NCBI GenBank assembly: GCA_937873495.1
Contig: CALMXZ010000003.1
Location: 124,001-188,000, forward strand
Reading direction: 5' to 3'
Length of the DNA: 64,000 nucleotides
Origin: an uncultured Trueperaceae bacterium
GTDB lineage: Bacteria > Deinococcota > Deinococci > Deinococcales > Trueperaceae
The notes under the pieces are model-generated. The model made no database searches and was not told the origin of the DNA. It worked only from the letters and a program-made list of their open reading frames with translations. This document shows positions 29,914 to 33,276 of the stretch, in pieces. Both the position numbers and the translations under genes were made by a program. Each line of letters starts with the position of its first letter. Position 1 is the first letter of the stretch.

Positions 29914-30968
<1,055 letters not shown>

Positions 30969-30972
<4 letters not shown>

Positions 30973-31589
30973 GCCCGTTCTTCCGTCCCTCTCCTCGGGT
31001 GGCCGCGCTCGGCGGCCAACGCCTTCACGCGTTCGACGCCCTCGAGGAGCTCGCCGATCGGGTCCCAGTAACCGGTCAGGAGCGCCTCGCGGGCCGTGTC
31101 GCGGACGCTGGCCGGGTAGGTCTTGCCGCCGGCCCGCACTTCCTGCGCCGCGACGTCGATGACGACCTCGACGCTCGGGTCACGCTCGCTGAGCTCGGCC
31201 AGCTCCTGGCGGCCGGCCTCGTCGACGACCGCGCATACGAGGCCAAGCGTCGTGCAGTTGCCGAAGAAGATCTCGGCGAACGAGCCGGCGACGATCCCCC
31301 TGAATCCGGCGCGCATGATCGACTGCGGGGCGTGCTCGCGGCTCGAGCCGCAACCGAAGTTGTCGCCCGTCACGATGATGCCCGCGCCCGCTCTGCGCGG
31401 GTCGTCGAGAGGGTGGCTCTTGCTGTTGCCGTCCTGGTCGAAGCGCTCGTCGAAGAAGAGCCCCTCGCCCATGGTCTCGAACGTCACGGCCTTGAGGTAA
31501 CGCGCCGGGATGATGCGGTCGGTGTCGATGTCGTTGGCCATGATGGGCACGGCGGTGCCGCGGGCCTCGGTAACGGGGGTGAGCGCCAT
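30969..31589 (-). CDS. leuD: 3-isopropylmalate dehydratase small subunit
   Basis: 206 residues, full-length LeuD of the enterobacterial/IPMI-small type. It has NDIDTDRIIPARYLK, the conserved GDNFGCGSSREHAPQ loop that completes the active site of LeuC, and IVAGSFAEIFFGNC. The complex isomerises 2- to 3-isopropylmalate. The ATG is 1 nt beyond the leuC stop and the end overlaps leuB, so expression is tightly coupled. Confidence 0.95.
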
Positions 31590-31590
31590 G

Positions 31591-33018
<1,428 letters not shown>

Positions 33019-33050: not shown

Positions 33051-33084
33051 GAGAAGACCCCCGGCCGCGGGTGGGCCGGGGGTC
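33051..33084 (-). terminator. Attenuator-like terminator in the leuC leader
   Basis: An 11-bp perfect stem, GACCCCCGGCC / GGCCGGGGGTC, with a 7-nt loop is followed by TTCTC on the minus strand. It ends ~32 nt before the leuC start. The segment GGGCCG (33118-33123) upstream can pair either with 33108-33113 to make its own hairpin (33107-33124) or with 33073-33078 in the 5' arm of the terminator, so mutually exclusive folds are possible. Confidence 0.7.
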
Positions 33085-33138
33085 GTGATGCGCTCGTGTT
33101 CTTGCGAGGGCCGGGTTCGGCCCTTACGAAGCTGCGGC

Positions 33139-33240
33139 TCACGCCTCCCGCTCGGCTAGCCATACGACCGACCGCCACTGGACGAATGCCAAGCGCCGTC
33201 TGGTGCGGGAGACCCTGCCGCCGGTCGTGCTAGCCGTCAT
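33139..33240 (-). CDS. Predicted leader peptide of the leuCDB operon
   Basis: A 33-codon frame begins with ATG 33240, 7 nt after the TATACT box, so it would be translated as a leaderless ORF. The peptide is Arg-rich in its first half (RTRRR) and ends VVWLAEREA. Branched-chain codons include GTC, GTA and the rare CTA close together (codons 25-28). The stop lies 15 nt before the first of two hairpins. Position, promoter and downstream terminator suggest a transcription-attenuation leader. The codon bias toward leucine is modest, so the sensed signal is uncertain. Confidence 0.6.
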   Translation of the reverse strand: MTASTTGGRVSRTRRRLAFVQWRSVVWLAEREA

Positions 33241-33247
33241 GCGGCGA

Positions 33248-33276
33248 AGTATAAGAGCGGCGGCGGTGGGCGTCAA
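33248..33276 (-). promoter_or_regulatory. Promoter of the leuCDB leader
   Basis: TTGACG (33271-33276) and TATACT (33248-33253) on the minus strand are separated by exactly 17 nt, close to the housekeeping consensus. The -35 box overlaps the pilT stop codon. Confidence 0.82.

Follow-up and report, generated by a model that had tools for sequence, protein, structure and literature searches.

The window, i.e., the whole stretch of 64,000 nucleotides analysed here from an uncultured Trueperaceae bacterium, carries the leucine operon leuCDB on its minus strand. Direct reading of that strand gives, in order, a promoter, an apparently leaderless ORF of 33 codons, a hairpin, an 11-bp terminator, a Shine-Dalgarno-like sequence and leuC (Table 1). 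The earlier note on this DNA had listed the promoter, the ATG 7 nt past the -10 box, the 33 codons, the hairpin, the terminator, TTCTC and leuC, all of which are present on the minus strand. Its remark that leucine is sparse in the leader was likewise borne out by direct reading: the peptide MTASTTGGRVSRTRRRLAFVQWRSVVWLAEREA, which ends at a stop codon at 33141-33139, holds one TTG (codon 17) and one CTA (codon 28) and no other Leu codon. The promoter-like site is the single one in a 2-kb scan, where shuffles expect 0.1, and because the leader ATG follows the -10 box by 7 nt, it is predicted to lie at or very near position +1.

Table 1. Features of the leuCDB leader locus (window positions) and of further leaderless leaders of the genome (genome coordinates)
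Feature	Position	Strand	Basis or remark
Sigma-70-type promoter, TTGACG-17-TATACT	33248..33276	-	Promoter scan and reading; same layout in 61 leader-bearing loci
Promoter boxes	TTGACG 33276-33271, TATACT 33253-33248	-	17 nt between boxes
Leader ORF, putatively leaderless, 33 codons + TGA	33139..33240	-	ATG at 33240, 7 nt past -10
Conserved peptide core RRRLAFVQWRSVVW-L	33157..33201	-	RRRL is codons 14-17, control CTA is codon 28
Control codon CTA (Leu)	33157..33159	-	Rare codon; invariant in aligned leaders
Antiterminator 5' strand CGGGAGGCGTGA	33139..33150	-	Last three codons + stop; predicted pairing
Antiterminator 3' strand TCACGACCCCCG	33077..33088	-	Overlaps terminator 5' arm; predicted pairing
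Interposed 7-bp hairpin AGGGCCG/AACC/CGGCCCT	33107..33124	-	Enclosed by antiterminator
Terminator hairpin, 11 bp, GACCCCCGGCC/CACCCGC/GGCCGGGGGTC	33056..33084	-	-25.6 kcal/mol
leuC Shine-Dalgarno-like AGAAGGAA	33027..33034	-	Direct reading
leuC, first gene of leuCDB	31591..33018	-	NCBIfam TIGR00170 above cut-off; ATG at 33018
leuD	30969..31589	-	NCBIfam
leuB	29914..30972	-	NCBIfam
ilvB leader, CTA CTA ATT + terminator	G000:C2:161285-161325 (L161)		Genus loci L225, L235, L238, L244, L250
leuS leader, CTA x CTA (here CTA TCC CTA) + terminator	G000:C11:254196-254233 (L169)		Genus loci L226, L240, L252
Aspartate--tRNA(Asn) ligase (non-discriminating aspS) leader, GAT/AAT (here GAT AAT .. GAT) + terminator	G000:C7:42211-42249 (L165)		Genus loci L227, L234, L236, L242, L253
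pheS leader, 12 codons, MRSPxASxxFT(R/C), invariant TTT	G000:C9:61338-61377 (L167)		Genus loci L228, L233, L237, L243, L251
DAHP synthase leader, clustered Tyr codons (here TAT..TAT..TAC..TAT)	G000:C11:411154-411191 (L170)		Genus loci L229, L232, L239, L249

The T tract behind the terminator (TTCTC, 33055-33051) is weak in this genus and stronger in many relatives, and because of this weakness the automatic terminator scan missed the leuC terminator. Searching the window and this region against Rfam returned only a chance match (E=4.2), with no T-box, riboswitch or other Rfam leader. The leader ORF itself (33235-33152, minus strand) holds a strong potential stem in the ribosome-free fold, CGGCTAGCACGACCG with CGGTCGTATGGCTAGCCG, of which the sequence match is poorer in locus L003 of the closest relative.

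The leader ORF and its CTA codon among relatives

We compared the DNA upstream of leuC in Trueperaceae and in related Thermus/Meiothermus-type families; a phylum-wide search for relatives gave genomes of this order only. Regions with at least 250 nt upstream of leuC were taken as readable, which left 65 once three from a family whose LeuC is distant had been set aside, and a leader was scored where an ATG or GTG lay 5-10 nt past a promoter and opened an ORF of 12-42 codons with at least one CTA. Such a putatively leaderless ORF is found in 61 of the 65 regions, relatives which are not independent of each other, and CTA is present in 61 of 61; in dinucleotide shuffles, the mean is 0.25 regions out of 65. 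Of the 30 Trueperaceae leaders, 26 have exactly 7 nt between the -10 box and the start codon. Leaders outside Trueperaceae, of which MRRGFLLDLGRAGPA and MPTRVKQPLLSPASGV are examples, have 12-20 codons and frequently contain two CTAs. The four regions without a scored leader differ in kind: a contig end truncates L011; L073 does have an ORF that contains CTA, but its promoter is not clear; L031 has no such ORF; and L025, where ACG replaces ATG and the CTA position reads CTG, resembles a decayed copy.

CTA makes up 2.2% of Leu codons in 40 long ORFs of the window (14,775 codons), and one gene for tRNA-Leu(UAG) was found among 45 tRNA hits. The earlier note had proposed attenuation with leaderless initiation, with the rare CTA as a possible gate, and had set beforehand a lack of conservation of the frame and hairpins in relatives as grounds for giving the proposal up. 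On examination no such lack was seen, and conservation over about 20 genera argues strongly for both the attenuation and the gate and speaks for the putative leaderless initiation. Its further thought that the sensed residue may not be leucine is not supported, CTA being the sole invariant codon. As candidates for the sensed amino acid we rejected arginine, of which the codons vary among all six synonyms, and tryptophan, which occurs in only a few leaders.

The predicted RNA switch and the peptide core

Sequence features of a classical attenuator are found at this locus, namely a short ORF between promoter and leuC, a Leu control codon, an intrinsic terminator and a predicted antiterminator exclusive with it. 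We located the terminator in 55 leaders and sought the best 12-nt partner of its 5' arm anywhere upstream in the transcript. Counted from the first base of the last CTA, this partner starts 3-18 nt downstream in 50 of the 55 leaders, a few automatically picked terminators being doubtful, and at +4 to +20 in 45 of 55 vs. 12.9 expected, while in five of 55 the best pairing is not at the expected place; the pairing z-score averaged over all leaders has its minimum at +9. When arms were swapped between genera, the own-genus arm paired better in 18 of 21 genera (mean -3.0 kcal/mol, p=0.0005), and two control segments upstream of CTA gave no significant effect in the same test (p=0.11 and 0.29). The segment just past CTA and the terminator 5' arm therefore covary between genera, and it follows from the segment being the conserved, covarying partner of this arm that leucine would be sensed at CTA.

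In the window, the pair consists of CGGGAGGCGTGA and TCACGACCCCCG. Within the genus the 5' strand reads CGGG(A/C)GGCGTGA, and the 3' strand has the same sequence in five of the five members read. A ribosome with CTA in the A site would leave AGGCGTGA free, and the predicted fold of the partial transcript is then the antiterminator enclosing the interposed hairpin; once the ribosome has moved on to the stop codon, the antiterminator helix cannot form and the terminator is predicted instead, so that in these folds the two structures exclude each other according to the position of the ribosome. If the 3' edge of the ribosome is taken to lie about 12 nt past the start of the A-site codon, only about eight bases of the 12-nt antiterminator strand stay free, a point against the proposed switch, as is the poor T tract of this genus. 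At the position of the interposed hairpin, five genus members have a hairpin of differing sequence, and it is possible that it serves as a pause hairpin or a spacer. Conservation of a mid-region hairpin across Trueperaceae was considered and rejected, as the signal is no more than suggestive among genus members (mean z -1.2) and disappears outside the genus (-0.07).

Ahead of CTA, what is conserved is a peptide. We aligned 26 Trueperaceae leaders of 11 genera on their last CTA; four others from this family, which lack the core (L007, L013, L018 and L044), were set apart. Position 0 is CTA in all 26, with no other codon. The core RRRLxxIxxR begins exactly 14 codons ahead of it at a fixed spacing: Arg at -14 occurs in 26 of 26 with all six Arg codons, every codon difference between genera being synonymous; Leu at -11 also occurs in 26 of 26, with five codons and never CTA; and Arg at -12 (25 of 26), Ile or Val at -8 (23 of 26) and Arg at -5 (19 of 26) follow. 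Upstream of the core there are 3 to 14 codons, and downstream of CTA 5 to 17. Because these flanks vary and the core is fixed, amino-acid conservation covers the part of the peptide that would occupy the exit tunnel during CTA decoding and ends at CTA, beyond which the constraint is one of RNA pairing. An RNA-level explanation of RRRL was rejected, third positions being free with all six Arg codons in use. It is also because of this conservation at the amino-acid level that translation of the leader can be inferred. In Trueperaceae only, the core has what is expected of an arrest peptide, i.e., conservation of amino acids at a fixed distance from the putative stall site, and since it is conserved as amino acids rather than as RNA, help of the nascent chain in stalling is suggested.

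A candidate mechanism and its rivals

We consider it very likely that the leuCDB leader is a leaderless, CTA-gated, ribosome-mediated leucine attenuator. The sequence comparison shows the leader ORF and its CTA, how the two are spaced, and pairings that exclude each other and covary; from these we infer where transcription of the leuC leader starts, the stalling and termination, and how it responds to leucine, as follows. Transcription would begin with the leader AUG or very close to it, and the leaderless end would be where ribosomes load. The attenuator would sense charged tRNA-Leu(UAG): when leucine is short, the ribosome would stall at the single CTA, held in the A site; the last leader codons and the stop codon, which lie just in front of it, could then pair with the terminator 5' arm while the 3' arm has yet to be transcribed, and RNA polymerase would read into leuC. 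When leucine is plentiful, the ribosome would reach the stop codon 18 nt downstream of CTA and cover the antiterminator segment, the terminator would form, and transcription would end. In Trueperaceae, with less certainty, RRRLxxIxxR in the exit tunnel during CTA decoding may strengthen the pause, so that one CTA suffices. Such a hybrid, which joins sensing at the hungry CTA codon to a nascent-chain element and would make a sharp leucine switch of one rare codon, is a tentative proposal that we place a little short of an even chance.

The alternative nearest to this hybrid is a plain codon-sensing attenuator, where RRRLxxIxxR is a basic stretch that sets speed or has some other role and makes no specific tunnel contact. 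It agrees with the Thermus/Meiothermus-type and f4 leaders, which have no core and still show CTA and the antiterminator, these lineages appearing to have working attenuators. Against it speak the invariant Arg at -14 and Leu at -11, encoded by all or most of their synonyms at a fixed distance from CTA in a peptide of which both ends vary, as well as the tendency of leaders without the core to carry more than one CTA (Fisher test at the level of genera, p=0.03), which agrees with a nascent-chain contribution and is no proof of it; we give this plain reading, too, slightly less than half of our belief. If the nascent chain were everything, the leader would be an arrest peptide like TnaC that senses free leucine, with CTA merely a slow codon. 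The conserved residues of the core do sit about 13-10, 7 and 4 back from the P-site residue, near TnaC Trp12, Asp16 and Ile19, which lie 12, 8 and 5 back from Pro24 (PMC8429421), a likeness in spacing that is analogy and not homology. That said, TnaC responds to high free Trp, whereas stalling at low charged tRNA is expected for a biosynthetic operon of this architecture, and the strict identity of CTA together with several CTAs in other leaders points to tRNA charging, which makes a TnaC-like sensor quite improbable.

The remaining two readings concern the RNA and the frame. The earlier note had seen that GGGCCG (33118-33123) can pair either within its own hairpin or with the terminator 5' arm. 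This pairing can indeed form, and it is seen in the fold predicted for the partial transcript when a ribosome occupies the stop codon; however, GGGCCG is not kept in the closest relative, L003, which has an AAGGGC/GCCCTT hairpin, nor in L004-L006, which have only a hairpin of other sequence. It is thus very unlikely to be the switch, and the conserved one is instead the pairing of 33150-33139 with 33088-33077, which encloses the GGGCCG hairpin. The leader ORF might also be a chance frame on a longer transcript that is regulated by something else, the transcription start at the leader being a predicted one, but its frequency compared to shuffles, the conserved distance from -10 to ATG and the conservation of amino acids leave this reading next to no probability.

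Related leaders and known systems

Throughout the whole genome, a strict leaderless-promoter pattern has 11 matches vs. 1 in the reversed control, six of which open short leader ORFs, upstream of leuC, ilvB, leuS, pheS, non-discriminating aspS and DAHP synthase; the last five recur in the genus (Table 1). Some of their control codons are very rare, ATT, AAT, TTT and TAT occurring 2, 2, 5 and 6 times in the 14,775 window codons. As at leuC, an antiterminator segment follows the control codons in most cases at ilvB, leuS and aspS, the pairing result for pheS leaders is mixed, and no clear terminator was seen at the DAHP synthase leader. Asp and Asn codons in the aspS leader would fit the two tRNA substrates of a non-discriminating enzyme. 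In one genus member, hisG is preceded by a leaderless leader with seven His residues, MLVGLTAQRHHRHHHHPHGSWWSRRSGIG (L231, G018:C119:13000-13600), likely a His attenuator. A related family has a leaderless ORF with three Trp codons, MRPRVRTPRSYKWHHQRWWCG (L300, G047:C1:1185335-1185373).

The leu leader of Salmonella has an ordinary ribosome-binding site. Like the present locus, leuL of Salmonella and E. coli combines a leader with rare CUA Leu codons, a terminator and an antiterminator upstream of a leucine operon, and changing CUA to CUG in Salmonella lowered sensitivity, according to work cited in PMC1183508. The Salmonella leader has three CUA codons, while here there is usually one CTA in a leaderless ORF of unrelated peptide with leuC as the first gene, and unlike in leuL the antiterminator arm includes the leader's own stop codon. 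Mycobacterial polycysteine attenuators share the leaderless short ORF and differ in using cysteine and contiguous codons; we know of no rare-codon gate or fixed peptide core among them. Their amino-acid-dependent elongation speed controls downstream genes, as cited in PMC9031893 and PMC13236596. In Sinorhizobium meliloti, the RNA 5' end is the ATG of the trpL leader ORF and attenuation takes place (PMC7298713), though for tryptophan, with a 14-residue peptide and in a different phylum. The actinobacterial LEU element upstream of leuA also puts a leader ORF that contains Leu codons ahead of a gene for leucine synthesis, yet it has a run of Leu codons and a pseudoknot with the leuA Shine-Dalgarno region, no terminator is described, and mutation data misfit classical attenuation (PMC1262725); we rejected membership of our leader in this element, as it has one CTA and a terminator instead and the gene is leuC.

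In Deinococcus deserti, mRNAs without a leader are common (PMC9031893), and a 2010 survey found leader-peptide systems only in Proteobacteria, Actinobacteria and, newly, Firmicutes (PMC2965389). Our literature search, beyond the reach of which lay older subscription papers, found no leu attenuation in Thermus, Deinococcus or this lineage. An older paper on the Thermus leu operon may mention a leader. Attenuation of leu operons through CUA codons is known, and so are leaderless leader ORFs; their combination and the peptide core appear to be new. To our knowledge, tuning of a starvation stall by the nascent chain has not been reported for amino-acid attenuators, and the fixed core offers a natural case where it may occur. 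Leader-peptide attenuation would hereby extend, in leaderless form, to the Trueperaceae/Thermus lineage, with a candidate set of switches that covers Leu, Ile/Leu, Phe, Tyr, Asp/Asn and, in one relative, His, and with these leaders one could test cleanly if a leaderless start aids the coupling of translation to transcription.
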